From a virus, in IMG/VR virus record IMGVR_UViG_3300010885_020289, positions 1 through 33,226 of that record: 33,226 nt of DNA; one strand, written 5' to 3'. Below, in pieces: positions 13,688 to 33,226 of the stretch. The position numbers and the translations under genes were made by a program. Every line of letters begins with the position of its first letter. The first letter of the stretch is position 1. The notes under the pieces are model-generated. The model made no database searches. It saw nothing but the letters and a program-made list of their open reading frames with translations, and was not told where the DNA came from.

Positions 13688-16600
13688 ATGGCAAGTAATG
13701 ACGAATATCCACTACCAGTAAGTATAGATGACCAAAATACGAGGCAATCTGCTAGACATTTGCCTAGATTTTTCCGTAGCGAACAGAATGAAAAATTCCT
13801 ATCTGGAGTTTTAGATCCGTTACTACAGCCTGGAAAGTTAGATAGAATAAACGGTTATGTTGGCCGAAAAGATATTCCTAATTTTAAATTTAATGACAAT
13901 TATCAAACTGATATTAATACAACTCGTCAGTATTATCAATTAGAGCCTGGATTTGTTTATGAAGATCCTAAAACAGGAGAACCTGTTTGGTTTAGTGATT
14001 ATGCAGACTATATGAATAGTCTTGCATATTATGGTGCAAATACTAGCAATCACGCAAAGCTTAATGCAGAAGAGGCATATTCTTGGGATCCTAGTATAGA
14101 TTGGGATAAGTTTGTTAATTTTAGAGAATATTATTGGCTTCCAAGTGGCCCTGATCCTATAAACATATACGGTACACAGATAGAAACTGTTAGTACATTT
14201 ACTGTAAATTCAGTTATCGACGGTAATAGATCAGATTTTATATTCACTCCTGATGGATTAACTATCAATCCTAGATTAACTCTTTATAGAGGTAATACCT
14301 ATACATTTAAGATCAATTCAAATAATAAGTTGTTTGGAATTAAAACACAACCAGTAGTTGGAAACAGTTATTTTTATAATTTTGGAGTTTCAACACAGAA
14401 TATAGATCGAGGTATTATTACATTTACCGTACCATACGAAGCACCAGATTTATTATATTACATAGATAATAACGATATTGATTCTCAAGGAATGATCGAT
14501 ATACGAGATATTGATGAAGACACATTCCTTGATGTAGAAGCAGAAATCATAGGCAAGACAAATTATATCAGTACTACTGGTATTAAATTTGTTAACGGAT
14601 TAAAATTAAAGTTTATAGGAAATATTTCTCCTGCAAAATATTCTAATGGATTTTGGTATGTTGAAGGAGTAGGCACAGCTATTACTTTAACAAAATATTC
14701 CGACTTAGAATCAACTCCACTTACAAATGATCCTACTGATCTACCTTTTGATTTACAACCATTTGATTCTGTTCCATTTGAAAATGCTAACAATTATCCT
14801 AATGTTAAAGAATATCTAGTTATAAACCGATCAAGTAGAGATAGAAATCCTTGGACAAGAAATAATCGCTGGTTCCATATCAGTGTTATTGAAACAACTG
14901 CAATAGCAAATGGGCAAATAGCATCTCCTGATCAGATAACACGAGCACACCGTCCTATTATAGAATTTTTACCTAACATAAAGTTGTATCAAAATGGATG
15001 GATTGCTAAACAGGATGTAGATCTAATCGATACTACTACAACTGACGTGTTTAGTACTATTGAAGGAAGTTTAGGATATTATGTTGATGGTGAAAAACTT
15101 ATTCCAGGACACAGAGTATTATTTACAGCTGACATTGATCCATTAGTTAATGGTAAGATATATGAAGTTAGTACTATAACTGTAAACCGTACTACAGTAA
15201 AGTTTCTATCAGCAGCTTGTACTTTAATTCCTCCATATCTAGTTACATTTACATTTGATACATTAGTAACGCCACCTTCGGTAAACTTTGGTTATACAGT
15301 AGAGGGAAATAGTAATTCTAATTATGCTGGATTGTATAATGCTGTAGCCAGTACAACTTCAAGTTTAACATTACTGTATCCAATAAATCCAGGTATCTTT
15401 GGTACCGGAACAACAACAGGAACATATGATAATTTTGGAAGTCGTCCACAGTTAACTCTAATACCAACTACTGATAGCAATCCTATTGACGGTGAAGTTG
15501 CATATGCTAAAGCTGGAAATAGTTATAGAGGATCGTCTTTTTATTATAACGGCACTAAGTGGCAGCAATCACAAAAGAAAACTTCAAAAAATCAAGCTCC
15601 TCTATTTGATTTATTTGATGAAAATGAAATTAGTTTTTCAGACAGCACAGTTTATCCAAGTTCGTCTTTTTCTGGAAATAGAATATTTGGTTATAGAATA
15701 GGTCCTGGCGCAGCTGATACAGAATTAGGTTTTCCATTATACTATCGTTCAATTGATAATATCGGAGATATTGAATTTGAATTTGATTTAGAAAATAGAT
15801 CTTGGAATTATATAAAAGACTCCGCATTGTCTAATGTATATTCGTATCAAGGATTTTTAAGAAAAGCTTTGTTAAACGGATCATTTAGATTTTTAAATGG
15901 ATGGACACAAACTGTTAGATCATTATATCAAAAAGCAGTTAGAATATTAGAAGTAACTGAATCAACTGATTTGATAGCAATTGATATTTTTAATAATAGC
16001 GAAGCATTAGGTGATATAAACGCACAAATATATGTTAACAATATTAAAAGAAATGATATTTCTAGAGTTAACATTAATGGGCTTGCTTATATAAAGTTTT
16101 CTACAGCGTTACTAGCTGGTGATCAAGTAGTATATAAGATACAGACTATTGCTAATAAAAATGCTAGAGGATATTATGAAATACCGTATAACTGGCAAAA
16201 TAATCCTTTTAATGAAACTCTAGGATATTTTACATTAGGTGAAGCAATAGATCACGTGCGTACTATTGTTGAAAATAATCCAGCATTTTCTGGATCATTT
16301 CCGGGCATAAGCAACTTACCAGTACTGGGAAATGTTTCAAAATTTGGACATCGATTCTTACAACATTCAGGATCATTTCCATTAGCCGCCTATCTAATAA
16401 CGGATAAGAAAAATAATATAATTGATGCACTTCAGTGGACCTCAACTCAATATACACAGTTTAAGAAAGAATTTTTACGTATCGCAGGTGTAGCAGCGTT
16501 TGAAGGATCTATATCTGAAAGAGTTGATCAAGTATTATTAGAATTTTCAAAATCAAAATATCTAGACAAATCACCGTTTTACTTCTCAGATATGGCACCC

Positions 16601-19600
16601 TATAAAGGATATACACAACGAGATTATATAGTACAAGACACTAGATTGCCTGTATTTGTGATTGATAGTATTTTTAATCCACAATCACAAACTAGAAGAA
16701 GTGTGTTAATTTATGTTAACGAGGTCCAATTAGTATATCTAGTTGATTATACTTTTAGTAAGACTGACGCATTTGTTAATATATCCTTTCCATTACATAA
16801 GAACGATATTATTACTATAAAAGATTATGTTAGTACAAATGGTTCTTATATACCTTATACTCCATCTTCGTTAGGATTGTATCCTAGTTATGAACCTAAA
16901 GTTTTTATTGACGACACATACATAACTCCTGTTAAGGTAATACAAGGACACGACGGAAGTATTGTAGTTGCGTATAATGATTACAGAGATGATCTTATTA
17001 TGGAACTTGAAAAGAGGATCTATAATACTAGAAGAATAAACTATAACAGCAATATCTTCAATATACATAATGTAATAAGTGGCTACTATAGAAATAGTCC
17101 TACTACATCATTCTTTACTAGAAATGAATTCAACAATATAGTATTACCAGATTTCTTAAAGTGGAATTCTTTAACAAATAAGGATTATAGTAGTAATTCT
17201 TATATTACAGAAGGTAATTCATTTACTTACAATTATAGTAATTTCTTTGCAATTGACGGCATAACATCGTTGCCAGGTTGGTGGAGAGCAATATATCAAT
17301 ATGCATATGATACTGATAGACCACATAGCCATCCTTGGGAAATGCAAGGATTTACTATTAAACCTGTTTGGTGGGATACTGTATATGGAAAAGCACCGTA
17401 TACCAGTGAAAACACATTAATGTGGACTGCAATTGAGCGTGGTATAATTAATACTCCAAATTATAGAAGATCAGACATACGTTATGCCCGTCCGGGATTA
17501 ATAAACAATTTACCCGTTGACGATCAAGGTAATCTATTAAGTCCGTTAGACAGCAATTTTGTAAAAGATTTTTCATTAGTTAATGCTAGAGGAAATTACA
17601 CATTTGGAGACGGAGCACCAGTTGAAGCTGCATGGCGTAGAACCAGTGAATATCCGTTTAGTGTAATAAAAGCTATGTGCATATTATCCGGCAGCGAATT
17701 TATCGGAAAAATGTGGGATAGATTTACTATAAAGAGGAACATTGCTGGACAGATATATAACACCAAAACAGGAAAAAGATTCAATACAGCTGATATAGTA
17801 TATCCAAATACTCCAATGGGCAATATAGATGATCCAACTGTTCCTAGGTCAATGAGCAACGGATTGTCTAACATCATTGACGATTATGTGTTCTCTCTTA
17901 ACGCAGTAAGTGTAGATACTTACAAAGATGTAGTAACTGGACTTAACACTAAATTAAGTCATCGATTGGGCGGATATACTAGTAAGGATAAACTTAATGT
18001 ATTATTAGACAGCCGCAGCCCAACTGCAAGCGGTACAGTTTTCTTACCACAAGACAATTACAATATATTTTACGATCAAAGTGCTCCTGTTGCAAGTGTT
18101 GTTTATAGTGGAGTATTGATAGAAAAAATAAACCTAATTGATCAATCTGGATATAGGATTACAGGGTACGATAAGAAGTATGGAATATTCCAAATATTCC
18201 CATCAATATCAAGTAAGAATGATTCGGGATTTAATGTTGGCGGAGTTACTGAAGCGTTTTCAGAATGGACGCCAACACAATATTATACTAAAGGTTATAT
18301 TGTAAAGTATAAAAATCGTTTCTATAGAGCCATAGCACCTAACACTTCTTCGGAGAAATTTGAAGATGACTCAGCAAGATGGTCACCTTTAAATAGTTTA
18401 CCAATTACTGGCGGAATCAGTGCCTTAAACAGAACACGATTTTCAGACACTGTAAAAGTAATACCTTATGGAACTGTATTTCAAACTGTACAAGATGTAG
18501 TTGATTTCCTATTAGGATATCAAGAAAAATTAAAATCTGATGGATTTAAGTTTGATGATTTCAATAAAGAATTAGGTATAACACTTGATTGGTTAACAAG
18601 TGCTAAAGAATTTATGTTCTGGACTTTACAAAACTGGAATTCTGGATCAATAATTACACTAAGTCCAAGTGCAACTAACTTACAATTTACACCTGTTATT
18701 ACAGCATCAATTGATGATTTTAGTTCATCAGCATTTGAATACAGTATATTAAAAGCAGACGGCACACCGTTTAGATTAAATCTCATTGATATACATAGAA
18801 AAGAAAACGGATTTACTGTAAAACCAAATGTAGCTGGTGATGGCATTTATTTTATCCGTGCTAATTTAATCCAACGAGAACATATACTATTGTTAGATAA
18901 TGAATCTGATTTTAATGATGTAGTTTATGATAAGATTAGCGGATATCGTCAAGGTAGAATTAAATTAATTGGATTCAGAACTAGTAAATGGGATGGCGGA
19001 TATACCACTCCTGGATTTATGTACGACTCTGCTATTATAAATCCTTGGCAACCTTTTACAGATTATAATTTAGGAGATATAGTAAGTTATAAAAACAATA
19101 GTTTTGTAGCAATTGTTAATGTTTCCGGCTCGGCAGACTTTGTTTTCTCAAATTGGAAAGAACAAGAAAAGATATTACCAACCGGATTAATGGCAAACTG
19201 GGATTATAGAATTGAACAGTTTAGAGATTTTTATGATTTAAATGCTAGTATATTTGACGATAACCAAAAGAAGTTAGCAAGACATCTTATAGGATATCAA
19301 GATAGGTCATATCTAGATAATATTATAATTGATGATGTTGCTCAATTTAAATTTTATCAAGGTTATATAAGAGAAAAAGGAACATTCAACAGCATCACTA
19401 AACTGTTTGATGTATTAAGATCAAGCGGATTTAGTACAGTAAATCTTTACGAAGATTGGGCATTTAAAGTTGGTGACTATGGTGCATCAGATGCATATTC
19501 TGAGATAGAATTTCCATTAGATGAAAAAGCATTTAGACATAATCCGCAAGATGTTGTCCTTACAGCTAATCCTGAATATCAAACAGATTTATCTATATAT

Positions 19601-22600
19601 AATGTATCTTCATCAATGGTTACAATAAAGCCGTTTAGTTATAATGCTAAACCTTTTCCAACTAAAAATATAGACACTGAGTTAAATGACTACGGTATTT
19701 TCAAATATCAAGTAGCAGGTTACGTTAGAGAAGACGATGTTGATCACGTACTATATGACCGTGCAGCACTATTGAATTATGATATTACTCAATTCCGAAA
19801 TAGTGATAAGATATGGTTAGCTTATACAGAAAATAATGATTGGGATGTTCTCGAATATATTAAAGTAGATTTGATTATCACTACTTGGACAGTTGACTTT
19901 GTTACTAATTCTCACATATATCTATATTGTGATGGAACAGATGATCTTGCTCGCGGCGATGTAATATCAATATCTAATCTAGGATTAATAGACGGATCTT
20001 ATATTATCCAAGACGTATCAGATAACATTATCACAATTTACACACTTAGTATATTAGCAACTATACCAAATTTAGTTACTAGTGGTGTTATTCATAGATT
20101 AAAGTCAGTTAGATACAAAAATCTAATGGCAGTTTCTGATAAGATTTATAATAGATTTGATATTTTAGGTGAAAAAATATGGATTGATCAGGATCTATCT
20201 GGAAATTGGTTAGTATTAGAAAATAAAGATGCATTTTTTAATAATGCAGGCACTAATAAGTCTGATGAAATATTACCATACACTAAGATTAACAATCAAC
20301 AAAATGGATATGAAATTAAAATAAGTGGTAATAACTTATATATGGTAGTTAGTTCCCCGTTTAAAGACAGAGGATCTGTTATTATATATCGCAGGCCAAA
20401 CAATTTAAGCAAGTGGAGTTATTCTCAGACTCTTAAAATTCCTAGTGATTACATAAGCTTTTTACCAAATGATCAATTTGGTAAAAGTTTAGATATATCG
20501 TATGATGGATTAACTATTGCAATTGGAATACCTCTAGCTAGTAATTTACGTAGTTTATATAAAGGAATCTTTAGTGAACAAGCTGGATATAATCAAAATG
20601 ATATAGTAACATATTTTGATGATCAAGACACTGGATTTATGTATCGATCTAAAATTCAAGTTAATTCGGGAACAGGTTCCTCATTTGTTTATGATAACTG
20701 GGATCTTGTTAGTTCTTATACTGGATCTGTGTTACCGTCAGCTACTCCGTCTGGATTAACAAATCAGGGCGTTGTTGCTATATTTAAATATGACGGATAT
20801 ACTAATAGATTTAAAATATCAAATATATTAGGATCAGCTGATCCTGTAAGTTACGAACAATTTGGTTCTAAAGTAAAATTTGTAGAAGACACAACTTCTA
20901 ATAATCTTGTTCTTTTTGTATCAGCAACTGGATACAGTACCGATACGGTTTTCAAAACTACAACAGAGTCAAGTGTTAATTCTAATATAATCACAGTTAA
21001 TAATACTACTGGTATAAAAGTAGGACAACTTATTGTTGGGTTAATTGATCCAATAACCGAAACAAATATTACTACTAAAGTAACAGGCACTACTAGCACA
21101 CACATATATCTCGATCAATATGTAACTATTGATATTAACGAACAGTTGCAATTTAAATTGCAATCTATAGGTAGAGTACACGTTCTAGTACAAACTAGTA
21201 ATGGTTGGCAGTTTAATAATGTAGAACCTTTTGTTGATCCATTTAAAAATCCACTAGTTGATATATTTCCACCTGCTAGCTTTGATCGAGTTAGTAATTC
21301 TAAATACGGATATGATTTTGATTGTTTATCTGATTTAAGTACAATTGCTGTTTCTTCTCCTTTTACAAGAGCAGGTACTGTTTATGTATTTGAAATAACT
21401 ACACAAAGTTACGAAAGCTTTCAATCTAAATTAAATGGTATTAATTATCTTTCATTTAGACTATTTGAAGTGATTAGTTCAGAAACACTTATTGATGGAT
21501 CTGTACCTAATTTAATTGGTGGATATATTTCCGCAGAAGATGCATTTGGATATAAAGTAATTCTTTCTAAGGATCTATTATTAGTATCTGCACCAAATAA
21601 TAATTCTAAAGGAAATCACGTTGGTGCAATATTTAATTTCCAAAAAGTTAATGAAACATATCAATTACAACAATCACTTATTCCACCAGTAACTAATACA
21701 TATGCATATGAAAGATTTGGCACTACGTTATCAATTGATCCATTAGGTGACATCTTAAGCATTGGTGCAGCAGGTGGTCCGTCGGTACTTGATACGACAT
21801 TTGATTCTTATGCTAAGGGATTATATTCAGAATTTTCGTTTAATCTTGATTCAATAGTAAAAATTGAAGGCACGGGTCCATATTATGTGAACTTTAATAT
21901 TACTGATCAAGAATTTAGCCCTCCTGTTGATTTATTTTATACTATATCTGGAAATAGTAATGAAAACTATAGTGGTAACTTTATAGCAACTACTAGTACT
22001 AATTCAACTATAACTTTTAAGTATGATGATTTTCCTGGACAGTTTGGAACAGGAATTACAAAAGCAACCAATCTTGATTTAAAGTATGTGTTAGACACCA
22101 CTAGTACATCTCTTACACCAACTACATTTGATAATAACTCAACAAAATTCTACGATCAAATACCGTTTACTGGTGCAGTTTATGTATATAATAAATTTGA
22201 CGATCAATTTATCTATGCTGACAGATTAACACCAAGTGATAATTTATCAGCACAGGATAATTTTGGATTTAGTATTTGTACATCTTCAAATTGTATTGCA
22301 ATTGGTGCACCTAATAAGTCCTTTGCCGGAATATCCTATGGATCTGTGTTTATTTTTAATTATAGTTCACTTAGTTGGAATAGACTACGTGAAGCAACAC
22401 CTCTAGTAGATATTGATAAATTTAAGAAATCTTTCTATTACAATACTACTACTAATACATTAATAGGAAATCTAGATTTATACGATCCATTAAAAGGACG
22501 CATTCCGGGTATTGCTGATCAAGAAATAAAATATCAAACTTATTACGATCCAGCTGTTTATCAATATAACGGTGATACAACTTTAGCAATTAACAACGAC

Positions 22601-25600
22601 CAAATTTGGACTGACACTCATATAGGAGAAGTTTGGTGGGATCTTTCAACAATTAAGTATACTTGGTACGAACAAGGAGATGTAACATACCGTAATTTAC
22701 AATGGGGAAAACTATTTCCCGGATCTATAGTTAATGTATACGAGTGGGTTGAATCAAAATACTTACCTAGTAAGTATCAGACATTAGCAGATACTACTGC
22801 GGGATTAGCTGAAGGTATTAGCGGAATACCAAAAGATACAACTGATACTACATATAGTACTAAAATAAAATATGATACTACTAGTGGTATTATTACTACA
22901 TTATATTACTTCTGGGTTAATAATAGAAGAGTAGCACCATCTTTTATGAATAGGAAACTAAGTGCTAATGATATTGCTAACCTCATAGCTGACCCAAAAA
23001 GTCAAGGTTATAGATCAATTAGTATTACTAGTGAGAACAGTCTATCTCTAACAAATATTAAACCTAAGTTACTCGGAACAAATGTCTCGTTAAATCTACA
23101 ATTTTATGAAATAGATAATACAGAATTAGCAATACATAGAGAATATGTATTAATCCCTAAGGGCGACCGATATGCTAATATTCCAAAAATATTAGAGAAA
23201 AAATGGTTTGATAGTTTAATAGGATTAGATATTGTTGGTAATACTGTTCCTGATAATAATTTAAGTATAAGACAGAGATACGGCAATTTTAATAGTCCTC
23301 GCCAGTCTTGGTTTGTTAATCGGTCTGAAGCATTAAAACAGACTATTGAGTATGTAAACTCAGTTTTACAAAATCAAAATTTATTAGATGAGATTAATTT
23401 AAAGAATCTAGAAAAACAAGAAATTCCTCCAACATTAGAATCTGGAGAAATTGATTTAATTGTTAATAGCTTAGAAGAATTGTCATATATTGGAACTAAC
23501 GGATTACTTACTGCACAAATATCGTTAACTCTTCGAGATGGAAAAATTATAGATTGGTTTATTGATAATAAAGGCCGAGGCTACGGTAAAAATAAATTAG
23601 CACCAGAGTATGGCGACGGAGTATGGGCTGGCCCAACTGCTAAGATAGTTAGTGCTACCGGAAGTGGTGGCGAACTTAAAACTTATGTAAATTCTTACGG
23701 AGAAGTTATTTGGGTTGAAATAACTAAACAAGGACAAGGTTATACGGAGATTTTAGGAAACACAGGTACTGATATTGGTACTACTGTTGTTGTAAGAGAT
23801 TTTACCGTATTGGTATTATCGGATGTTGATGCATTGAACAGTTGGAGTTTACAGACCTGGTCATTTGTTAGCGACTTTGATGCTATATCATATCGTAACT
23901 TAGTACAAAATAATCTAGGACTTGTTACTAAAAATTATCCACATCACTGGTTAAAGACTAGGACACAATCTTATAATGTTACAAGATACTGGTCTTTTGT
24001 TGATTGGTATGCATCTGGGTTTACTGCACAATCTGACATTAAGTTTATTATAGATCGTACAGATAATTTAAGTGGATTACCTTCTGATATTGGTGATTTA
24101 GTAAAAGTAACAAATGCTGGTCTTAATTCTTGGTTATTATTGTTAAAGATTGCTAATACAAACGATCCGGATTTTACTATAGATTATCAAGTAGTTGGTG
24201 AAGAGAACGCTACTATACAATTTTCAAGTGCTCTATACAATTTCAATAGTGAAATTGGATACGATGAGAAATATAGTTATGATTTAGATTTGTATGATTC
24301 TAATCCTACTACAGAATTAAGAATCATATTAGAAGCTATACGAGATGATATCTTTGTAGAAGAATTAAGGATTGAATATGTTAATTTATTCTTTAATACT
24401 ATACATTATATTCTAAGTGAGCAGCATTTTACTGATTGGTTCTTTAAGACTAGTTTCTTAAAAATGAATCAGATTGTTGGAAATTTAAATCAAAATGCAA
24501 CATTCCAAACAGATCCATTAGCAGACTACGAATCATATATTGAAGAAGTAAAACCATATAAAACTAAGATAAGAGAATTTGTTAGCTCATATCAAGGATA
24601 TGATTATTCTTACAATACTGTGACTGATTTTGATTTGCCTAGTTATTTTAATCTAGACACTGGAAATTTTGAAACAACTGATTTATATTCTTCGTATATA
24701 ACCAAATATCCTTGGGCCAATTGGTTAGAAAATCACACTTATCAAGTAGTGGATATTGTAATAAATCAAAAAGGATCTGGATATATTTCTAAGCCAACGG
24801 TAGTTATATCACCACCAATAGAAAACTCTATTGTTTGGAATAAACTAATCCCATTAGATGAGAGTGTTTACGTATCGTTTAACCATAACTATTATCTAAC
24901 TGGTACAACTGGTGTTACTGGAAGTACACCGCCTACACATACTACTGGTTCTGTATTAAACGGAACTGTTATCTTTACATATGTAGCTACTGATGCAAGT
25001 GCTACAGCATACATTGGTACCGGATCGTTGTTTGCAATTGAAATAGATAACCCAGGTTACGGATTTTTATCGTCACCGATTATAACTATTCGAGGAGGCA
25101 ATGGCCCAATCAATTTTGTACAGGCTACTGCGGTTGCCCACATAGGTAACAATAAGGCTAGAAGTATAACTCTTAAAATGAAGTTTGACAGATATCTAAA
25201 AAATTATTATGTTAATGATTTTAGTTATACTGATACTTTCCAAGCAATAAATGAATCTGTGTTTAAATTAACATATGCTCCTGAGATTGAAAAGAGCAAG
25301 TTTACAATAACTGTTAATGACATAGAGTATTACGGATCACAGTATTCTGTATCAATAAAGCAAGAAACACATGACACATATAATTCTATAATAGGAAATA
25401 TAGTATTTGCATCTTTAGTTACCGGCATTGTAGTAATTAAGTATTACAAAAACATTGGAATATACGGTGCTGCTGATCGAATTAATTACGCATATTCTCC
25501 AACTAGCGGGCAATATGGTAAGGATCTATCACAACTAATGACCGGAATAGATTACGGTGGAGTTGAGTTTACTAGTATAGCATTTAACATAGTTGGCGGA

Positions 25601-28600
25601 TGGGATATATTAAACTGGGATATTAGTTCTTGGGATACAATTGTTACTACTAACGACGACTATGTTGTTACATTTAGTAACAATAATTCTGGCATTATTT
25701 CAAATCAATTTACATTACCTTATATTCCTGCAACCGGCGAAATAATTAATACATACTTAAAAATTAAAAACACAAATGAAACTGTTAGAATTGATAGTAC
25801 AGATCATAATATTAACTATCAATTAACAATTGAAGGAAATCCAATATATTCTCTTAACGGAGCATTTAATAATACTTCAAGTGTAGAATTTAATACTTTA
25901 GAATATACGGTAACTGTTGTACGCTCACCAGTTTACAATGTTAACACTCTTACTACTAATATTTTAATTGATGTCTTTACCACCGGTGATTCTATAAAGT
26001 TTGAATATCCACAACCATTAACTGGTTGGAAGATAGGATCAAAATCCCTTACATCAGATTCAATCAGGTACAATTATAATACTTGGAGTATAGAAATTGA
26101 TGGTGATCGCCAGTTAGATTTTATTTTAAATTCTACATATAAGTTAACACCTATATTAACTGATCACATTGTTATATCAGATCCGATAGATAATACACTC
26201 TTTGATTTCCTTTTTGATTTTGAAAATGATGATTTTACTATTGAGCTCTTTGTCAAACCAGCAGCTGAACCTGATAATGATTGGAACCCAATTCTAACAA
26301 TAGGAAGATCCCAAGGCGGAGTTGAAAGAGGTAAAGAAATACGTATAGGATATAATATTGATAATTCTGGAGTAGGATATCTTATACCTAATAACAGTAA
26401 CAACGCTAATGTATACAATGGATTTGGTAGTTTAGAATTAGATACTTGGTCTCATATAGCATTGACTAGAAAAGGTAGTTCAGTTTATTTCTTTATTAAT
26501 GGTATATTAAAAGAAGAAATTACAAATGTAGATTTTACATTTTCTGCACTTGGGCCGTTGCAAATTGGATATGGTTTATATCCAGCTGATGGTTACTTCA
26601 AGGGATCAGTAAGCAATGTTAGAGTTCTTAAAGGTACAGGATTATATACTGTTAATTTCTTAGTTCCAAATTCGCCATTAATGAATATTGAAAATACTTC
26701 GTTATTAGTATTAGATTCTCAAATCTCATTAAGATCATTCAATGGTAATGGTATTAACAATGTTATAGATATTGGTATATTAGGAAATTTACGAACGGGT
26801 GATCAACTAACATTCCGTAAGACTACTAGTGATGGCACTATTTTACCAAATGATCAATCTCTTCTTGATTCATTAATATCAGGCGGTGATTTAGCATATA
26901 TCTCGGCCAAGGGAATTACTCCGGATGAAATAATTATTGACGGCGATGATTTTGTATCAGCTGAAACAAATCACGGTCCAGAAGAATTAGTACAAGGTCA
27001 TGTTGTTGATACAGTTGACATTAAGGTATATGATGCTCCAGCTTCAGGAGGTCCACGTATCACTATTGACAATTATATTGGTGACGGTATTACGTCTACA
27101 TATCCACTAGGTGTATTACCTCCTAACGAAGATGCTGTTATTGTCTTTATTAACAAACTCTTCCAAAATTCTATTAACGTAGATTTTGCAAACAAAACAG
27201 TTACTTTGGTTACTGATGACAATTTATCAGACCCGCCCCCACTTAATAGTAAAGTAACTATTTTTATAATAGATACTGCTGGATATGATATTTTATCTAG
27301 GGAGATAATTGTTGCAGATGGTGAAACTAGAAGTTTCTTAACCGGCGCTAGATATACAGCAAACGATGTAAGTGCGTATATATTAGTTGACGGAGTTGAT
27401 ACTAGTGCATCTATTTTAACAAGCAACCAAGATAATCCAAATATCGGTAATGTTATAGTTAGACTTGAAAATCCACCTGCTGAAGGTAGCATTGTACAAA
27501 TAATGATATTCAGGGGATCTATGCAAAAATATAGTAAAACGGTTAATCACGTTATTCCTATTACTAATAAAACAACATACGATTTACCTAGAGTTCCTAG
27601 TAGCATACTACCGTTATCTGCATATGTATGGGTAATTGTTACATATAGTGTTAATGGTGTAAAAAAACAAGATTTCTTAAGAGCACCTGACTATGAAAAT
27701 TTTGTGTATCCTGAACCAATAGAACTTGATGGATTAAGATATGCATCTTATTCAGTTGAATTAGATATTATTTCTGTATATAAAAACAATATAAAATTAT
27801 TACAAATCCGAGATTATTCTTTTGATAGTGCTAATAATATAATAATTCTAAGAGATGGTATTGCAACTGATGGTGATAAAATTATAGTGGAAATCTTTAG
27901 AGATCATGATTTTGAAATTAACGGGTCAAAACTAGTCATCACTAAAAATTACAATTTATCAAACAAAGATGCTATCCTATTCACTACATTTACTAACCAC
28001 GATCAATGGGATATAATGAGAAATAATAAAGAATTTGCATTCACTACTGGATACGAAGCTGTTCCGTATGACATAACACAATACGACACCTTTGGAACTA
28101 GCATTAACACATCCGGTATATTTGATCTACCAAGAACTGTTTCTGATAAGAGCGGAGTATTGGTTTCTGTTAGCAGAGAATTATTAGTTTATGGTGTTGA
28201 TTATGTAATTCTCGACAATATGAGACAGATTAGAGTCACACTTCCAGATGTATTAACCAAGAAAGATTTTATAGAAATTATAACAACTAATCCTAAAGTA
28301 GCTACTAATAGTTTTGGATTTAGAATCTTTAAGGATATGCTGAATAGAACCCAATATAAAAGATTGGATAATAAAAAAACTACAGAATTAATTAGAGATT
28401 TAAATTATTATGATACTTCTATTGAAGTAGCTAATGGATCTATATTAGATACACCTAATAGACAGAATAATTTACCAGGAGTTATTAATATCAATTTTGA
28501 AAGAATTGAATACATGGTAAAAAATAATAATGTGTTAAGTCAATTACGTAGAGGAACCGTTGGCACAGCAATCAATGTATCTGTTCCAGCCGGAACTTCT

Positions 28601-30181
28601 GTAACAAGTATGAGTTACACCGATACTATTCCGTATACTGATAATGAAATTAAGAACACTTATATTGCCGATACAGCAATTGTAGAAAACATTGGCATTC
28701 CAGTTGGAATAGGTAACGGCACAATTTATGGTATATCTATGGTTGTTCCAAGCCACCCTGTTACTGCAACCATCTCAATTAATGCTGTTGATATAACAGT
28801 AGAATTATTATCAGGCGTTGACATTTCTGTTAATAGAAACCGTGTAAAAACAGCCATTAATAATTATTCAAATATTACTGGAGTAATAGCAGATAGAGTT
28901 GTTAATGTTGATCATCCAGAATTATCTAATAATCCCAATGGCATAGATCTAATCCCGGCAGCAATTAATATTCCAGTCAATGGATTTGTAAGCAAAACAA
29001 ATTTAAGACCATATCAAGTTACATTTAGTATTGATACACAAGCAATACCACCTAAAACTGGAATAGCATACAATATAACAGGTAGTGTAAACACTAATTA
29101 TAACGGTAGTTATATTGCAATAGATTCTACAGAAACTTCAGTAACTTTGGAATATCTTGTTGATCCGGGTGAATTTATTGAAAAATTAAATGTAATATCA
29201 TTCTCTGATAAGGTCGGAAATGGTCCTTACTTTGTTACCTTTAATATACCATTACGTACTCTAAAACCATCTATCAATGTATCATATATTATAGAAGGAA
29301 ATATAAATCAGAAATACAATAGTTCATATTATTCTAATAATAATAAACCTGTAGCTACTTCTAGTACACTTAGTACTATAACATTTAGATACGTAACAAA
29401 CCCAGGAGTGTATGGTAAAACTATTCCGGTAATTACTAGATTCAGTAAATTTGCTGTCGGTCCTATGAACTCTCCTCCATTCCATGTAACTTACACTATT
29501 GCTCCGCAAGATACTCCACCCGATCTCGGATTAAAGTATACAGTTTCTGGAAGTAATGATCTAATTGATTTTACTATATATAAAAATACATCATTTTATA
29601 ACGGATCATTTCTAGCTGTCGCAAGCACAACTACTAGCATAACATTAGAATATCCTACAGATCCTGGATTATTTGCAGGTGGTCTCATTAATCTTAGTAG
29701 TATCACAAAAATTAACTCAGCTGTTAGTTTAAATATTGATATAGATACATCAATTACTGTTGCTAATGCATATATTCTACCATTAACTTTTGTTCCAATA
29801 ATTGGTACCTCGCCTGACATAGTTGATACTAGTGATTGGTATAGAGAATCTATACCTTCAGATTACGGTCAAAATAACGAAATGGAAGTATTCGTAAATG
29901 GTACTAGAATGAATAAGACGCCATTAACTGTATATGATCAATCTTTAGCACAGGATAGTTTCAACAGTGCTGGTGATAAGCAAATAGAAGCAGATTATAG
30001 TGTAAACGGTATTGATAGTGCTATACGATTTACAAACGCACCAGCACCGGGATCAACTATAAAGATATTAACTAAAAAAGGATATACTTGGTATAATAAC
30101 GGTGAAACAGTTCAACTAGCATTTAGTGAAAGTAGAATTGCTAAGTTCATTACAGCAACTTCGGTTGATTTACCTAAATAA
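13688..30181 (+). CDS. Giant mosaic virion protein at the gp7 position
   Basis: One uninterrupted frame of 5,497 codons. I recognise it as a marine T4-like virion protein by its conserved blocks: LPRFFRSEQNEKFLSGVLDP and YYWLPSG (1-162), RPHSHPWEMQGF and WWDTVYGKAPYT (about 1211-1240), ARHLIGYQDRSYL and FYQGYIREKGT (about 1834-1957), EEVKPYKTKIREFVS (about 3630) and a C-terminal block ending in DLPK (5380-5497). It lies right after gp6, where T4 encodes the 1,032-residue wedge protein gp7, so it may fill that role, but I see no direct gp7 similarity. Between the blocks are a cupredoxin-like domain (168-275), three CBM5/12-like modules, a beta-propeller (about 2208-2900), four GxGY-type motifs (3296-3795), a LamG domain (about 4159-4344), an RIEY/LRRGT module (about 4898-4978) and five copies of a 57-75-residue repeat. 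No signal peptide or membrane segment is seen. The ribosome site GGAG is at 13672-13675. Confidence 0.85.
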   Translation: MASNDEYPLPVSIDDQNTRQSARHLPRFFRSEQNEKFLSGVLDPLLQPGKLDRINGYVGRKDIPNFKFNDNYQTDINTTRQYYQLEPGFVYEDPKTGEPVWFSDYADYMNSLAYYGANTSNHAKLNAEEAYSWDPSIDWDKFVNFREYYWLPSGPDPINIYGTQIETVSTFTVNSVIDGNRSDFIFTPDGLTINPRLTLYRGNTYTFKINSNNKLFGIKTQPVVGNSYFYNFGVSTQNIDRGIITFTVPYEAPDLLYYIDNNDIDSQGMIDIRDIDEDTFLDVEAEIIGKTNYISTTGIKFVNGLKLKFIGNISPAKYSNGFWYVEGVGTAITLTKYSDLESTPLTNDPTDLPFDLQPFDSVPFENANNYPNVKEYLVINRSSRDRNPWTRNNRWFHISVIETTAIANGQIASPDQITRAHRPIIEFLPNIKLYQNGWIAKQDVDLIDTTTTDVFSTIEGSLGYYVDGEKLIPGHRVLFTADIDPLVNGKIYEVSTITVNRTTVKFLSAACTLIPPYLVTFTFDTLVTPPSVNFGYTVEGNSNSNYAGLYNAVASTTSSLTLLYPINPGIFGTGTTTGTYDNFGSRPQLTLIPTTDSNPIDGEVAYAKAGNSYRGSSFYYNGTKWQQSQKKTSKNQAPLFDLFDENEISFSDSTVYPSSSFSGNRIFGYRIGPGAADTELGFPLYYRSIDNIGDIEFEFDLENRSWNYIKDSALSNVYSYQGFLRKALLNGSFRFLNGWTQTVRSLYQKAVRILEVTESTDLIAIDIFNNSEALGDINAQIYVNNIKRNDISRVNINGLAYIKFSTALLAGDQVVYKIQTIANKNARGYYEIPYNWQNNPFNETLGYFTLGEAIDHVRTIVENNPAFSGSFPGISNLPVLGNVSKFGHRFLQHSGSFPLAAYLITDKKNNIIDALQWTSTQYTQFKKEFLRIAGVAAFEGSISERVDQVLLEFSKSKYLDKSPFYFSDMAPYKGYTQRDYIVQDTRLPVFVIDSIFNPQSQTRRSVLIYVNEVQLVYLVDYTFSKTDAFVNISFPLHKNDIITIKDYVSTNGSYIPYTPSSLGLYPSYEPKVFIDDTYITPVKVIQGHDGSIVVAYNDYRDDLIMELEKRIYNTRRINYNSNIFNIHNVISGYYRNSPTTSFFTRNEFNNIVLPDFLKWNSLTNKDYSSNSYITEGNSFTYNYSNFFAIDGITSLPGWWRAIYQYAYDTDRPHSHPWEMQGFTIKPVWWDTVYGKAPYTSENTLMWTAIERGIINTPNYRRSDIRYARPGLINNLPVDDQGNLLSPLDSNFVKDFSLVNARGNYTFGDGAPVEAAWRRTSEYPFSVIKAMCILSGSEFIGKMWDRFTIKRNIAGQIYNTKTGKRFNTADIVYPNTPMGNIDDPTVPRSMSNGLSNIIDDYVFSLNAVSVDTYKDVVTGLNTKLSHRLGGYTSKDKLNVLLDSRSPTASGTVFLPQDNYNIFYDQSAPVASVVYSGVLIEKINLIDQSGYRITGYDKKYGIFQIFPSISSKNDSGFNVGGVTEAFSEWTPTQYYTKGYIVKYKNRFYRAIAPNTSSEKFEDDSARWSPLNSLPITGGISALNRTRFSDTVKVIPYGTVFQTVQDVVDFLLGYQEKLKSDGFKFDDFNKELGITLDWLTSAKEFMFWTLQNWNSGSIITLSPSATNLQFTPVITASIDDFSSSAFEYSILKADGTPFRLNLIDIHRKENGFTVKPNVAGDGIYFIRANLIQREHILLLDNESDFNDVVYDKISGYRQGRIKLIGFRTSKWDGGYTTPGFMYDSAIINPWQPFTDYNLGDIVSYKNNSFVAIVNVSGSADFVFSNWKEQEKILPTGLMANWDYRIEQFRDFYDLNASIFDDNQKKLARHLIGYQDRSYLDNIIIDDVAQFKFYQGYIREKGTFNSITKLFDVLRSSGFSTVNLYEDWAFKVGDYGASDAYSEIEFPLDEKAFRHNPQDVVLTANPEYQTDLSIYNVSSSMVTIKPFSYNAKPFPTKNIDTELNDYGIFKYQVAGYVREDDVDHVLYDRAALLNYDITQFRNSDKIWLAYTENNDWDVLEYIKVDLIITTWTVDFVTNSHIYLYCDGTDDLARGDVISISNLGLIDGSYIIQDVSDNIITIYTLSILATIPNLVTSGVIHRLKSVRYKNLMAVSDKIYNRFDILGEKIWIDQDLSGNWLVLENKDAFFNNAGTNKSDEILPYTKINNQQNGYEIKISGNNLYMVVSSPFKDRGSVIIYRRPNNLSKWSYSQTLKIPSDYISFLPNDQFGKSLDISYDGLTIAIGIPLASNLRSLYKGIFSEQAGYNQNDIVTYFDDQDTGFMYRSKIQVNSGTGSSFVYDNWDLVSSYTGSVLPSATPSGLTNQGVVAIFKYDGYTNRFKISNILGSADPVSYEQFGSKVKFVEDTTSNNLVLFVSATGYSTDTVFKTTTESSVNSNIITVNNTTGIKVGQLIVGLIDPITETNITTKVTGTTSTHIYLDQYVTIDINEQLQFKLQSIGRVHVLVQTSNGWQFNNVEPFVDPFKNPLVDIFPPASFDRVSNSKYGYDFDCLSDLSTIAVSSPFTRAGTVYVFEITTQSYESFQSKLNGINYLSFRLFEVISSETLIDGSVPNLIGGYISAEDAFGYKVILSKDLLLVSAPNNNSKGNHVGAIFNFQKVNETYQLQQSLIPPVTNTYAYERFGTTLSIDPLGDILSIGAAGGPSVLDTTFDSYAKGLYSEFSFNLDSIVKIEGTGPYYVNFNITDQEFSPPVDLFYTISGNSNENYSGNFIATTSTNSTITFKYDDFPGQFGTGITKATNLDLKYVLDTTSTSLTPTTFDNNSTKFYDQIPFTGAVYVYNKFDDQFIYADRLTPSDNLSAQDNFGFSICTSSNCIAIGAPNKSFAGISYGSVFIFNYSSLSWNRLREATPLVDIDKFKKSFYYNTTTNTLIGNLDLYDPLKGRIPGIADQEIKYQTYYDPAVYQYNGDTTLAINNDQIWTDTHIGEVWWDLSTIKYTWYEQGDVTYRNLQWGKLFPGSIVNVYEWVESKYLPSKYQTLADTTAGLAEGISGIPKDTTDTTYSTKIKYDTTSGIITTLYYFWVNNRRVAPSFMNRKLSANDIANLIADPKSQGYRSISITSENSLSLTNIKPKLLGTNVSLNLQFYEIDNTELAIHREYVLIPKGDRYANIPKILEKKWFDSLIGLDIVGNTVPDNNLSIRQRYGNFNSPRQSWFVNRSEALKQTIEYVNSVLQNQNLLDEINLKNLEKQEIPPTLESGEIDLIVNSLEELSYIGTNGLLTAQISLTLRDGKIIDWFIDNKGRGYGKNKLAPEYGDGVWAGPTAKIVSATGSGGELKTYVNSYGEVIWVEITKQGQGYTEILGNTGTDIGTTVVVRDFTVLVLSDVDALNSWSLQTWSFVSDFDAISYRNLVQNNLGLVTKNYPHHWLKTRTQSYNVTRYWSFVDWYASGFTAQSDIKFIIDRTDNLSGLPSDIGDLVKVTNAGLNSWLLLLKIANTNDPDFTIDYQVVGEENATIQFSSALYNFNSEIGYDEKYSYDLDLYDSNPTTELRIILEAIRDDIFVEELRIEYVNLFFNTIHYILSEQHFTDWFFKTSFLKMNQIVGNLNQNATFQTDPLADYESYIEEVKPYKTKIREFVSSYQGYDYSYNTVTDFDLPSYFNLDTGNFETTDLYSSYITKYPWANWLENHTYQVVDIVINQKGSGYISKPTVVISPPIENSIVWNKLIPLDESVYVSFNHNYYLTGTTGVTGSTPPTHTTGSVLNGTVIFTYVATDASATAYIGTGSLFAIEIDNPGYGFLSSPIITIRGGNGPINFVQATAVAHIGNNKARSITLKMKFDRYLKNYYVNDFSYTDTFQAINESVFKLTYAPEIEKSKFTITVNDIEYYGSQYSVSIKQETHDTYNSIIGNIVFASLVTGIVVIKYYKNIGIYGAADRINYAYSPTSGQYGKDLSQLMTGIDYGGVEFTSIAFNIVGGWDILNWDISSWDTIVTTNDDYVVTFSNNNSGIISNQFTLPYIPATGEIINTYLKIKNTNETVRIDSTDHNINYQLTIEGNPIYSLNGAFNNTSSVEFNTLEYTVTVVRSPVYNVNTLTTNILIDVFTTGDSIKFEYPQPLTGWKIGSKSLTSDSIRYNYNTWSIEIDGDRQLDFILNSTYKLTPILTDHIVISDPIDNTLFDFLFDFENDDFTIELFVKPAAEPDNDWNPILTIGRSQGGVERGKEIRIGYNIDNSGVGYLIPNNSNNANVYNGFGSLELDTWSHIALTRKGSSVYFFINGILKEEITNVDFTFSALGPLQIGYGLYPADGYFKGSVSNVRVLKGTGLYTVNFLVPNSPLMNIENTSLLVLDSQISLRSFNGNGINNVIDIGILGNLRTGDQLTFRKTTSDGTILPNDQSLLDSLISGGDLAYISAKGITPDEIIIDGDDFVSAETNHGPEELVQGHVVDTVDIKVYDAPASGGPRITIDNYIGDGITSTYPLGVLPPNEDAVIVFINKLFQNSINVDFANKTVTLVTDDNLSDPPPLNSKVTIFIIDTAGYDILSREIIVADGETRSFLTGARYTANDVSAYILVDGVDTSASILTSNQDNPNIGNVIVRLENPPAEGSIVQIMIFRGSMQKYSKTVNHVIPITNKTTYDLPRVPSSILPLSAYVWVIVTYSVNGVKKQDFLRAPDYENFVYPEPIELDGLRYASYSVELDIISVYKNNIKLLQIRDYSFDSANNIIILRDGIATDGDKIIVEIFRDHDFEINGSKLVITKNYNLSNKDAILFTTFTNHDQWDIMRNNKEFAFTTGYEAVPYDITQYDTFGTSINTSGIFDLPRTVSDKSGVLVSVSRELLVYGVDYVILDNMRQIRVTLPDVLTKKDFIEIITTNPKVATNSFGFRIFKDMLNRTQYKRLDNKKTTELIRDLNYYDTSIEVANGSILDTPNRQNNLPGVININFERIEYMVKNNNVLSQLRRGTVGTAINVSVPAGTSVTSMSYTDTIPYTDNEIKNTYIADTAIVENIGIPVGIGNGTIYGISMVVPSHPVTATISINAVDITVELLSGVDISVNRNRVKTAINNYSNITGVIADRVVNVDHPELSNNPNGIDLIPAAINIPVNGFVSKTNLRPYQVTFSIDTQAIPPKTGIAYNITGSVNTNYNGSYIAIDSTETSVTLEYLVDPGEFIEKLNVISFSDKVGNGPYFVTFNIPLRTLKPSINVSYIIEGNINQKYNSSYYSNNNKPVATSSTLSTITFRYVTNPGVYGKTIPVITRFSKFAVGPMNSPPFHVTYTIAPQDTPPDLGLKYTVSGSNDLIDFTIYKNTSFYNGSFLAVASTTTSITLEYPTDPGLFAGGLINLSSITKINSAVSLNIDIDTSITVANAYILPLTFVPIIGTSPDIVDTSDWYRESIPSDYGQNNEMEVFVNGTRMNKTPLTVYDQSLAQDSFNSAGDKQIEADYSVNGIDSAIRFTNAPAPGSTIKILTKKGYTWYNNGETVQLAFSESRIAKFITATSVDLPK
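14191..14510 (+). other. Cupredoxin-like domain without copper ligands (giant protein 168-275)
   Basis: The layout is LYRGNTYTFKI, FGIKT, then GIITFTVPYEAPDLLYY, which resembles cupredoxin-like domains found in marine phage proteins. In those the end normally reads like YYxCxxHxxM; here it is YYIDNNDIDSQGM. The Cys and His ligands are absent, so this is probably a structural remnant. Confidence 0.5.
15230..15421 (+). repeat. Shared beta module, copy 1 (giant protein 515-578)
   Basis: The copy reads PPYLVTFTFD, then YTVEGNSNSNYAGLYNAVAS and NPGIFGTGTTTG. It matches the module consensus: xPYxVTFxI, PP, YxVxGNxNxxYNGSY, STxxSITLxY, DPGxFG. Confidence 0.75.
18263..18391 (+). other. CBM5/12-like module 1 (giant protein 1526-1568)
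   Basis: The sequence pattern is EWTPTQYYTKGYIVKYKNRF, then YRAI and a final W about 20 residues on (ARWSPL). This is the W-Y-G-V-Y-Y-W aromatic spacing of chitin-binding type 3 / CBM5/12 modules. Sugar binding is inferred. Confidence 0.55.
19046..19165 (+). other. CBM5/12-like module 2 (giant protein 1787-1826)
   Basis: The sequence is WQPFTDYNLGDIVSYKNNSF, then VAIV and SNWKEQ. It has the same aromatic spacing as the module at 18263 and lies directly after a conserved marine-phage block (TTPGFMYDSA). Confidence 0.55.
20585..20713 (+). other. CBM5/12-like module 3 (giant protein 2300-2342)
   Basis: GYNQNDIVTYFDDQDTGFMY is followed, about 20 residues on, by YDNWDLVS. It is a more divergent version of the two upstream modules, lying between propeller blades. 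Confidence 0.4.
21869..22060 (+). repeat. Shared beta module, copy 2 (giant protein 2728-2791)
   Basis: The copy reads GTGPYYVNFNITDQ, then YTISGNSNENYSGNFIATTS and FPGQFGTGIT. It is inserted in the beta-propeller region, close to the fourth and fifth blades. Confidence 0.75.
26162..26720 (+). other. LamG/concanavalin-like domain (giant protein about 4159-4344)
   Basis: DDFTIELFVKP, then LDTWSHIALTRKGSSVYFFI, NGILKEEI and GYFKGSVSNVRVLKGTGLYT follow the standard LamG order. These domains bind carbohydrates or proteins, and in phages usually lie in host-contact proteins. Confidence 0.8.
28380..28622 (+). other. RIEY/LRRGT module (giant protein about 4898-4978)
   Basis: The order is GVININFERIEYMVKN, then LSQLRRGTVGTAINV and PAGTSV. 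I recognise this as a small domain recurring in marine T4-like baseplate proteins, often with GERIEY. Its function is unknown to me. Confidence 0.45.
29006..29176 (+). repeat. Shared beta module, copy 3 (giant protein 5107-5163)
   Basis: The copy reads RPYQVTFSIDTQAIPPKTG, then YNGSYIAIDSTETSVTLEY and DPGEF. It is the first of three copies placed in a row. Confidence 0.8.
29216..29428 (+). repeat. Shared beta module, copy 4 (giant protein 5177-5247)
   Basis: The copy reads GNGPYFVTFNIPLRTLKPS, then IEGNINQKYNSSYY, STITFRY and NPGVYG. It carries a short Asn-rich insertion (SNNNKPVAT) in the middle. Confidence 0.8.
29459..29683 (+). repeat. Shared beta module, copy 5 (giant protein 5258-5332)
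   Basis: The copy reads SPPFHVTYTIAPQDTPPD, then YTVSGSND, an insertion of about 12 residues, YNGSFLAVASTTTSITLEY and DPGLFAGG. Confidence 0.8.
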
Positions 30182-30198
30182 ATAAAGAGAGTGATAAA

Positions 30199-30852
30199 AT
30201 GGATAAGAAAAAAGTTAATCAACAAGAGCAGGACAAGAAAATGATTAGAAAACCAGATGAAAAAGGCGCCTTTAATGTTGAAGGACATATCAAGATTTTT
30301 GATCCTGAGAGTGGCCAAATTTTTGTGAATAAACGAAATGCAATTCATTATGAAAATATGAGTATAGCAATGGCTTCTAGTTTGTCTGATCAACGATCGG
30401 GTTACATTTATCAAATGGCATTTGGTAACGGTGGAACATATGTTGATCCAACTGGAATTATAACTTATCTTACTCCAAACACTGTTGGAATTAACAGCAG
30501 TCTTTATAATCAAACTTTCGTTAAAGTTGTTGATGGAAACGCTGTAGAAAATAAAGATCCAATACGAAACAACATACAGATGATGCATACTACAGGAAAT
30601 AATTATACAGATATAATTGTATCTTGTTTGCTCGATTATGGTGAACCTACTGGTCAAGGTGCATTTGACAACGCTACAGGCTTAAACGATTTATACACGT
30701 TTGATGAATTAGGATTAGTAGGATACAATCCAAATGGCTCAGGAAAGCTATTAACTCATGTATTATTTCATCCAGTACAGAAGAGTTTGAATAGATTATT
30801 ACAGATTGATTATACTGTTCGTATACAAAGCTTATCGGGGTATAGTGCATAA
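30199..30852 (+). CDS. Conserved myophage virion structural protein, function unknown
   Basis: This 217-residue protein begins with a short Lys/Gln-rich charged arm (1-20). A compact domain follows with GAFNVEGHIKIFDPESGQI, NKRNAIHYENMSIAMASSL, YIYQMAFGNGGTYVDPTGI and SGKLLTHVLFHPVQKSLNR. I recognise this pattern as a virion protein shared by marine T4-like phages and some large myophages, but I know no established role; location between the giant protein and the collar fibre suggests a connector or peripheral baseplate part. It occupies the position of T4 gp8 but does not look like gp8 (334 residues). It starts 17 bases after the giant gene, with a weak AGAGAG ribosome site. Its stop TAA shares one base with the next ATG. 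Confidence 0.65.
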   Translation: MDKKKVNQQEQDKKMIRKPDEKGAFNVEGHIKIFDPESGQIFVNKRNAIHYENMSIAMASSLSDQRSGYIYQMAFGNGGTYVDPTGIITYLTPNTVGINSSLYNQTFVKVVDGNAVENKDPIRNNIQMMHTTGNNYTDIIVSCLLDYGEPTGQGAFDNATGLNDLYTFDELGLVGYNPNGSGKLLTHVLFHPVQKSLNRLLQIDYTVRIQSLSGYSA

Positions 30853-33226
30853 TGTCTTACAAAATACAATTCACTAACAACAACAATAACACACCATTAA
30901 TAGTTAATGATAATTCTACTAATACTCAAACTAGTTTATCATTTCCTGGTAGAAACTTTGTAGGATTTTCGTCTATGATAGGCGAGAATTTCCTACATCT
31001 TTTAGAAAATTTCGCGAATACGGAACAACCATACAATCCAGTTGAAGGTCAGTTATGGTATGATAACACTGCCGGAAGTACGCAACTTCGTATATGGGAT
31101 GGTACTAATTGGTCACCAGCTGGATCAGTTAATAAGTCAACAATCGCTCCTACATTTGGAAATGTTGGCGATTTATGGATAGATACATTACATCAACAAT
31201 TATATCTATATTCAGGCGTAAATTGGGTTCTAGTTGGACCAACATTTAGTTCCGGATTAAAAAGCGGATTACAAGTTGAAGTTGTTGAGGATGCTCTCAA
31301 TAACGATAAAACAGTTTTAAAAACATATTTAAACGATCAAGTTGTATCGATATATTCAACACAGTCCTTTATTCCAAAAATAGCTATTGATGGTTTTACT
31401 AGAATTAACCCTGGACTAAATGTAACTAATGCTAGTTTTACTGGCGGTACAACAATTACTAAAGTTTGGGGTACATCAGAGAAAGCTGAATCTCTAGTTG
31501 TAGGAAACACAGTTGTTCCAGCAGCAAATTTTCTAAGATCAGATTATCCTAGTTCAACTACTTTTCCTTTATCAATTAAAGATGATACAGGTGTTACTGT
31601 TGGAACTGAAAATCAACTTAAATTACAAGTGTCTGCATCTGTTGGAACACTATATCATAGTACAGCACAATCAGCATTAGATTTAAAACTCAACATAAAC
31701 GGACAGGCAAAAACTGTTATTCGTTTAGATGCCACTACTGGAAATGTTGGTATTAATAATTTAAATCCACAAGCAACACTTGATATTGATGGCACTACAA
31801 AGATTAGCGGTGATGTACATATTACAAGCACTACTGACTCACTAACATCATCGGTTGGTGCATTAATAGTTGACGGTGGAGCAACTTTTAAAGGAAATGT
31901 TAATTTAAATAGCGATACGTATGTTGCTGGTACTTTATACCTAGATGTTAGCGAAGGGCAAAGTGGTGGTATATTACATGGTATGTTGCCGGTTAGTAAC
32001 GGTGATATAGATATAGGTGGTAATGATATCATAAACGGATACTATCCTTTCTCTAATGTATACGCTAATAAGTTCATTGCTACAAACAATGGAAGTTTTG
32101 TTGGTAACTTAACTGGAAGTGTTTCTGGAAATAGTATTTCTGCAAGTAGATTACAAGCAAGTACATTGTTTAATATAGAAGGCGACGTTTCTGCTAGTGG
32201 ATTTAGTTTTGATGGATTGACTGGTGGTATTACATATACTATTGACACTACAGTCGGTACATACGGATTTATAAGCAAGAATGGTTCTGGACCATATTTT
32301 GTTACTTTTGGAATCACTTTACAGACTATAAAACCAGCTACTGGTATTAATTACGTTGTAACAGGAAATAGTTCAGCTGGATATAATGGTAGTTATACAG
32401 CAACTGGTACTACATTAAGCAGCATTACTTTAAGATATGATATCGATCCTGGAATATTTGGCTCCGGAACTACTACTTTAACTTCGAGTTCGGGATTAGT
32501 AAAAACATTTCAAACTTTGATATCTTCTAACTTCATTACTTCAAAAGATGAGATAACTGATTCTACCGATGCAGATACTATACTATTATATAGACCAAAT
32601 GTTGGTCTTAGAAAAACCAACAAGACAAATTTTGTAAAATCGTTACCATTAGTTCCAGTTGGAAGTATTTTTCCTTTTGCAGGACCAAGCAGTAAAGTTC
32701 CAGAAGGATATGTATTATGTGACGGTAGCGAGCAAGAAAAATCTAGATATTTAGATTTGTTTAATGTTATTGGATATACATATGGTGACCCAATTACTTT
32801 AGCAGGAATAAACAGTTTTAGAATACCAGATCTAAGAGGACGGTTTGCCTTGGGTCTAGATAATATGAATAATGGAAATACTGTTACTACAGTTAATGGA
32901 TCAGAAACTACTATAACTACTCCAGCTGCCCGCGTCAGTCAAGACTCGTCTAGGGTATTAGGTAATAGTGGCGGCAACGAATCTTATACTATGAACATTA
33001 ATAATTTACCTCCTCACGTACATACACTTACTGGCGATCAAGGAACTAAATTTTATGCAGTAAATAATGAATCAGGAGAACCTACCGACGGCGGCTCTAG
33101 CAATACTGTAGTTGTACTTCCGGTAATTCCATATGGAGCTAGTTCTACAGTTGAGCGTATTGATAGGACTGGAAATGTACTATATGGACCACCTGCTGCT
33201 CAACCTTTAGCTGTTATGAATCCCTA
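30852..33226 (+). CDS. Tail-collar fibre / host-contact protein, partial
   Basis: 791 residues are present and the right edge cuts the gene. The N-terminus (about 25-125) has the marine-phage pattern FPGRNFVGFSSMIGENFLHL, then two copies of a GxLWxD...W motif (GQLWYDNTAGSTQLRIWDG and GDLWIDTLHQQLYLYSG). A beta-rich shaft follows, including one copy of the module shared with the giant protein (477-542). Residues about 604-675 form a phage tail-collar domain: GSIFPFAGPSSKVPEGYVLC, DGSEQEKSRY, then SFRIPDLRGRFALGLD. The last visible residues, AVMNPY, match the MNPYxxxNYIIK ending of collar proteins, so only about 10-20 residues should be missing. It probably acts as a short tail fibre or adhesin (T4 gp12-like class). 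The ATG overlaps the previous stop by one base (TAATG). Confidence 0.85.
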   Translation, partial: MSYKIQFTNNNNNTPLIVNDNSTNTQTSLSFPGRNFVGFSSMIGENFLHLLENFANTEQPYNPVEGQLWYDNTAGSTQLRIWDGTNWSPAGSVNKSTIAPTFGNVGDLWIDTLHQQLYLYSGVNWVLVGPTFSSGLKSGLQVEVVEDALNNDKTVLKTYLNDQVVSIYSTQSFIPKIAIDGFTRINPGLNVTNASFTGGTTITKVWGTSEKAESLVVGNTVVPAANFLRSDYPSSTTFPLSIKDDTGVTVGTENQLKLQVSASVGTLYHSTAQSALDLKLNINGQAKTVIRLDATTGNVGINNLNPQATLDIDGTTKISGDVHITSTTDSLTSSVGALIVDGGATFKGNVNLNSDTYVAGTLYLDVSEGQSGGILHGMLPVSNGDIDIGGNDIINGYYPFSNVYANKFIATNNGSFVGNLTGSVSGNSISASRLQASTLFNIEGDVSASGFSFDGLTGGITYTIDTTVGTYGFISKNGSGPYFVTFGITLQTIKPATGINYVVTGNSSAGYNGSYTATGTTLSSITLRYDIDPGIFGSGTTTLTSSSGLVKTFQTLISSNFITSKDEITDSTDADTILLYRPNVGLRKTNKTNFVKSLPLVPVGSIFPFAGPSSKVPEGYVLCDGSEQEKSRYLDLFNVIGYTYGDPITLAGINSFRIPDLRGRFALGLDNMNNGNTVTTVNGSETTITTPAARVSQDSSRVLGNSGGNESYTMNINNLPPHVHTLTGDQGTKFYAVNNESGEPTDGGSSNTVVVLPVIPYGASSTVERIDRTGNVLYGPPAAQPLAVMNP
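32280..32477 (+). repeat. Shared beta module, copy 6 (collar fibre 477-542)
   Basis: The copy reads NGSGPYFVTFGITLQTIKPA, then VVTGNSSAGYNGSYTATGT, SSITLRY and DPGIFGSGTTT. It closely follows the copies in the giant protein encoded upstream, in a different gene of the same cluster. Confidence 0.8.

Follow-up and report, generated by a model that had tools for sequence, protein, structure and literature searches.

The locus described here poses the question of why one small beta module recurs in two different virion genes of a single phage, and what this unit might contribute to the particle. The DNA analyzed (33,226 nt, hereafter the window) is a single 33-kb virus record in which the plus-strand genes resemble the baseplate cluster of a contractile tail. 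These genes are arranged in the order baseplate wedge subunit, hub/lysozyme, gp25-like protein, gp6-like wedge protein, a 5497-aa giant protein, a 217-aa protein and a collar-domain fibre. The giant has remote homologues in jumbo phages that include PA5oct, Atu_ph07, RaK2 and 121Q. Genes for SbcC/SbcD-like nuclease subunits and a late sigma factor occupy positions 3-2943 on the strand opposite to the baseplate cluster.

Six Copies of One Module in Two Virion Genes

The module family consists of six copies, five in the giant (g1 to g5) and one in the collar fibre (f1). The initial annotation had described these copies as sharing one layout, and each was located where it had been placed, with all six belonging to a single family (Table 1).

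Table 1. Positions of the two virion genes, the module copies and slot C in the window.
Feature	Position	Strand	Residues	Remarks
Giant virion protein	13688..30181	+	5497 aa	immediately follows gp6-like wedge gene; phrog_10938 virion structural protein, E 5e-223
Module g1	15188..15436	+	giant ~501-583	fills slot 1; 88-aa insertion; profile 93 bits
Module g2	21824..22075	+	giant ~2713-2796	fills slot 2, in an FG-GAP propeller-region loop; profile 103 bits
Slot C	28673..29851	+	giant 4996-5388	inserted stretch of ~393 aa; ~100 aa precede the three tandem copies and ~50 aa follow
Module g3	28967..29185	+	giant ~5094-5166	profile 99 bits
Module g4	29186..29428	+	giant ~5167-5247	small loop expansion; profile 94 bits
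Module g5	29429..29701	+	giant ~5248-5338	loop expansion of ~10 residues; profile 89 bits
Collar fibre	30852..33224	+	791 aa	reaches window end; Pfam Collar PF07484, E 6e-15; phrog_8763 tail protein
Module f1	32247..32492	+	fibre ~466-547	fills fibre slot, which separates shaft from collar domain; profile 102 bits

When the window was searched in six frames, the profile recovered the six copies at 89-103 bits and detected no seventh copy, with everything else scoring ≤4.7 bits. In leave-one-out searches each omitted copy was retrieved by the profile of the others at 52-81 bits, compared to ≤1.7 bits among 40 shuffled proteins (20 shuffles each of the giant and the fibre). Pairwise identity among the copies is 29-48% at the protein level and 47-57% at the DNA level, and at positions where the amino acid is identical between copies the codon is the same in only 25-62% of cases. 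These values bear out the proposal that the DNA has drifted while the protein pattern has been kept. The PP or KP pair and the DPGxFG motif that were proposed as elements of this pattern are evident as tendencies, but they are not fixed: the only invariant columns among 20 copies are occupied by Y, T, and P. Moreover, the unit is longer than the 57-75 residues that were assigned to it originally. The module spans ~80-90 residues because the preceding strand, for example GFISKNG or LNVISFSDKV, belongs both to the barrel described below and to the inserted stretch.

The Module Is Predicted to Form a Small Closed Barrel

The structure of f1 was predicted with AF2 from 88 residues of the fibre sequence, for which the input alignment also contained 19 relatives drawn from the window and from related phages. 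The model comprises six strands (pLDDT 87, pTM 0.77), and this confidently modelled barrel agrees with the compact fold that was anticipated for the module. The closest solved structures are small closed barrels, namely the Ighmbp2 barrel (Z 9.0) and the FCCH domains of UBA6 and UBA1 (Z about 8, 2.9-3.2 Å over ~82 residues, with a Foldseek E-value of only about 0.1). Further matches were to riboflavin synthase (Z 7.6), a stretch of the phi92 endosialidase (Z 7.1), and phage T1/FCWL1 tail proteins. The matches listed are closed barrels and contain no Ig entries. Values of Z 7-9 for so small a barrel may reflect merely a common arrangement of strands. The model of the g3-g5 tandem was weak (pLDDT 51) and too poor for judging packing, and g5 within this low-confidence model matched the same E1 FCCH structures as f1. 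A search in a library of viral structure predictions retrieved this fold in numerous uncharacterised phage proteins, in cyanophage fibres and in the phiM9 baseplate wedge, with little sequence identity and mostly weak E-values.

Judged by these models, the module is a predicted six-strand beta barrel resembling the E1-FCCH (split-barrel) type. Although E1 FCCH and other split-barrel domains provide the closest solved folds, no sequence relation with E1 FCCH was detected, the context is different and there is no sign of ubiquitin chemistry. The FCCH Pfam model failed to match any of the six copies at E-values up to 10, and the module matched no CBM family by sequence in Pfam.

Each Copy Lies within an Insertion in a Permissive Loop

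Related giants (69) were gathered for comparison, of which 65 ORFs aligned at slot 1, and 32 fibre ORFs were aligned at the fibre slot; some of the records are duplicated or near-identical, and the counts therefore do not equate to independent events. Slot 1 is ≤12 residues long in 54 of the 65 aligned ORFs compared to the 88-aa insertion in the window. Slot 2 comprises about 7 residues or fewer in nearly all giants beyond the window clade, with the exception of L018; negative or very short lengths here derive from overlapping anchors and were counted as empty. The g2 copy, which was ascribed initially to the beta-propeller, is located in that region but as an insertion in a propeller loop, outside the propeller proper. 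Slot C in relatives is occupied by a C-terminal linker of 7-34 residues or by other modules, and the fibre slot measures 2-4 residues in 24 of the 32 fibre ORFs. Thus, each copy lies in a clean insertion in a permissive loop of an otherwise conserved virion protein, and the module is an independently folding unit that close homologues of these proteins lack.

The layout of modules in the related phages G001 and G003 is the same as that in the window. G003 possesses an extra copy as an insertion of ~78 aa in a separate loop at window residue 2346, where the window phage has no copy. Extra fibre genes that include the N-terminal region of the fibre follow the collar fibre in tandem in both phages (G001, 60799-63119, minus strand; G003, 35310-37543).

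Other domains also are discernible in the giant. A Laminin-G/concanavalin-like lectin domain (PF13385, E 6e-16) spans residues 4177-4315 (window 26216-26632), and a CBM_5_12 match of the chitin-binding type is present at residues 1526-1556 (window 18263-18355). A distant jumbo-phage homologue of the giant is annotated as chitin-binding type-3. The stretch SNIITVNNTTGIKVGQLIVG... (window 20954-21166) resembles another portable module between propeller blades and had no match in Pfam. The segment of slot C that precedes the three tandem copies (window 28670-28990; ISINAVDITVEL...AINNYSNITGVIADR) recalls flagellin hook IN motifs, with no significant Pfam match.

The Same Slots Accommodate Unrelated Modules

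In other relatives the slots hold unrelated modules that include IGA, CBM5/12-like, IPT/TIG and others. The IGA module is a glycine-rich unit of ~45 aa with a consensus like GxxYxIxxxGTTxFxxIGAxxNxxGxxFxATGxGSGxGTA. It fills the fibre slot in L088, L089, L093, and L109 and slot C in L022 and L025, and among these cases G009 has it in both slot C of the giant and the fibre slot. Beyond these slots, IGA is found in a virion protein of cyanophage S-TIM54 and in two environmental phages. Slot C is filled by pairs of CBM5/12-like modules in L019 and L027 (CBM_5_12, E 6e-5 and 5e-4, which are below the curated cut-off) and by an IPT/TIG domain in L050 (E 9e-7). Three kinds of alternative module occupy slot 1 in L020, L021, L023, L025, L027, L043, and L070, and a further alternative is present in slot 2 of L018. 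Profile comparison revealed no relation between the module and IGA. The commonest alternative in slot 1 (L021, L027, L043, and L070) was suspected to be a distant FCCH-like relative, but it too showed no relation to the module in profile comparison. The IGA unit and this slot 1 filling therefore are treated as different modules.

The occupancy patterns bear on an early suggestion that the module is a shared docking unit, by which copies in the giant and the fibre would pair, or would share a partner, and so anchor the fibre on the baseplate. In the window clade the module is present in both proteins, and in G009 both contain IGA, as would be expected of docking. However, most relatives possess these two proteins with slots that are short or empty in each, and G004, G005, and G029 possess IGA in the fibre with none detected in the giant. 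As most relatives do without the module, docking is very unlikely and is rejected as the main explanation.

Distribution of the Module among Phages

A pattern scan of IMG/VR that was built from a five-row alignment of the fibre and g1 copies identified 71 loci. With a refined profile, 121 copies scoring at least 45 bits were found in 75 ORFs at 72 uncultivated-phage loci. When the module was masked in these host proteins and the two proteins of the window were added, the set separated into eight unrelated clusters. Host proteins to which a name could be given are like tail fibres or wedge-fibre connectors, and mostly the former. Ten records have two module-bearing genes (the window, G001, G003, G046, G052, G056, G064, G066, G069, and G077), in accord with the proposal that a single phage uses the module in several of its virion genes. 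Single copies produced no convincing tblastn match in 50,697 phage records, and the cultured record therefore is uninformative at the sequence level. The module is not described among Pfam or PHROG profiles, and none was found in a scan of bacterial genomes. One copy lies in a 3269-aa fibre-like ORF (L116 1088-10894; G038) that also matches the Phycobilisome family of Pfam at residues 805-864 (E 8e-6).

The barrels instead might be structural spacers or stabilisers that just lengthen or stiffen loops, or shield these from proteases, without engaging a ligand. The fold is generic with no recognised ligand site, and the slots accept many unrelated fillings or none, as an inert spacer would permit. 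Nevertheless, the alternative fillings include CBM5/12-like and IPT/TIG domains and most host ORFs are tail-fibre-like, both of which suit binding better than inert spacing. A spacer role accordingly is considered unlikely, albeit the strongest of the rival explanations.

The Copies Have Been Inherited in Place

In a tree of 22 copies from four related phages, the copies grouped by site and not by genome. Five label changes were counted, which is the minimum for six groups, compared to 13.6 in shuffles, and support for the groups ranged from strong (g1 and g2) down to moderate. The grouping by site indicates that the copies already were in place before these phages diverged, and within the window clade they have been inherited in place.

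Copies could also stay alike through recent copying between the two genes of one genome, and the presence of several copies of one family in a single genome is what such a process would generate. In contrast, identity between copies within a genome (29-48%) is lower than that between orthologs (mostly 55-72%), identity of the DNA is only 47-57%, and the tree groups by site with far fewer label changes than in shuffles. Recent copying within the genome thus is extremely improbable. The DNA identities and the site grouping uphold the original view that the copies are not a recent duplication. Shuffling between the baseplate periphery and the fibre, which also had been proposed, is not supported as a recent or within-genome process, given the site grouping in the four phages and the often closer copies of unrelated phages.

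Most copies in the clade are nearer to copies of unrelated phages than to their siblings in the same genome, a signal that is driven in large part by a consensus-like external copy. Sequence nearness of this type would fit a pool of modules that is shared among phages. The nearest external copy was dismissed as evidence of a donor phage: L119 is the top external match of the majority of clade copies, which is what a sequence close to the consensus should be.

Discussion

The module represents a new family within a known class, the virion decoration domains, with insertion slots that are unusually clear. On balance, it is best viewed as a portable, independently folding decoration domain that probably acts as an accessory surface adhesin, and we infer that it binds a ligand. 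A role as a receptor-binding unit, which was suggested at the outset, is plausible. To our knowledge, FCCH is not a known glycan-binding domain. The conserved residues of the module may be purely structural, and no conserved aromatic binding patch has been demonstrated.

The loops that form the slots tolerate such variety that they are likely to be surface-exposed. If so, the barrels would stand out from the baseplate region and, in the fibre, from a point between shaft and collar domain. On this reading they most likely bind glycans of the host surface or the environment, multivalently and with low affinity, and so would add avidity to the dedicated receptor-binding tip. Because empty, single, and triple fillings are all compatible with the scaffold, phages could acquire, lose or exchange modules with assembly intact, and those exchanged would be drawn from a pool common to phages. 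A broader and more tentative proposal, which may be correct but is advanced with less assurance than the adhesin assignment, is that the conserved giant and collar fibre carry fixed permissive sockets for interchangeable binding modules from a pool shared by uncultivated phages, so that host attachment would be tuned at sites other than the receptor-binding tip.

Several known systems provide parallels. Carbohydrate-binding modules decorate the virions of 936 lactococcal siphophages, and two have been shown to bind hosts (PMC6669499). As in the phages studied here, these are small modules on several virion proteins of one phage group that are dispensable and occur in lineage-specific combinations, whereas the folds and the virion proteins differ and binding, which was demonstrated in the 936 phages, is presumptive for the present module (PMC6669499). 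Tail-associated proteins of crAss-like phages possess tandem BACON repeats for which a role in host binding is suspected (PMC6949934). The two share the tandem arrangement of beta modules in tail-associated proteins, but BACON is a named carbohydrate-binding family whereas the module matches no Pfam family and is both in tandem and scattered over two genes (PMC6949934). In phage tail mosaicism, domains recur among tail fibre, baseplate and spike proteins that have no other relationship (PMC10684548). The phages described here differ in having precise slots that are seen both empty and alternatively filled within one protein family.

The analysis defines a recurring family, undescribed in Pfam and PHROG, that is frequent among the tail genes of uncultivated phages and gave no tblastn match in sequenced isolates. 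It also locates permissive sites of insertion within a family of giant virion proteins. These sites open the question of whether host attachment is altered by swapping small modules at fixed positions. If this is true, the sockets would constitute a natural plug-and-play system that tunes host attachment.
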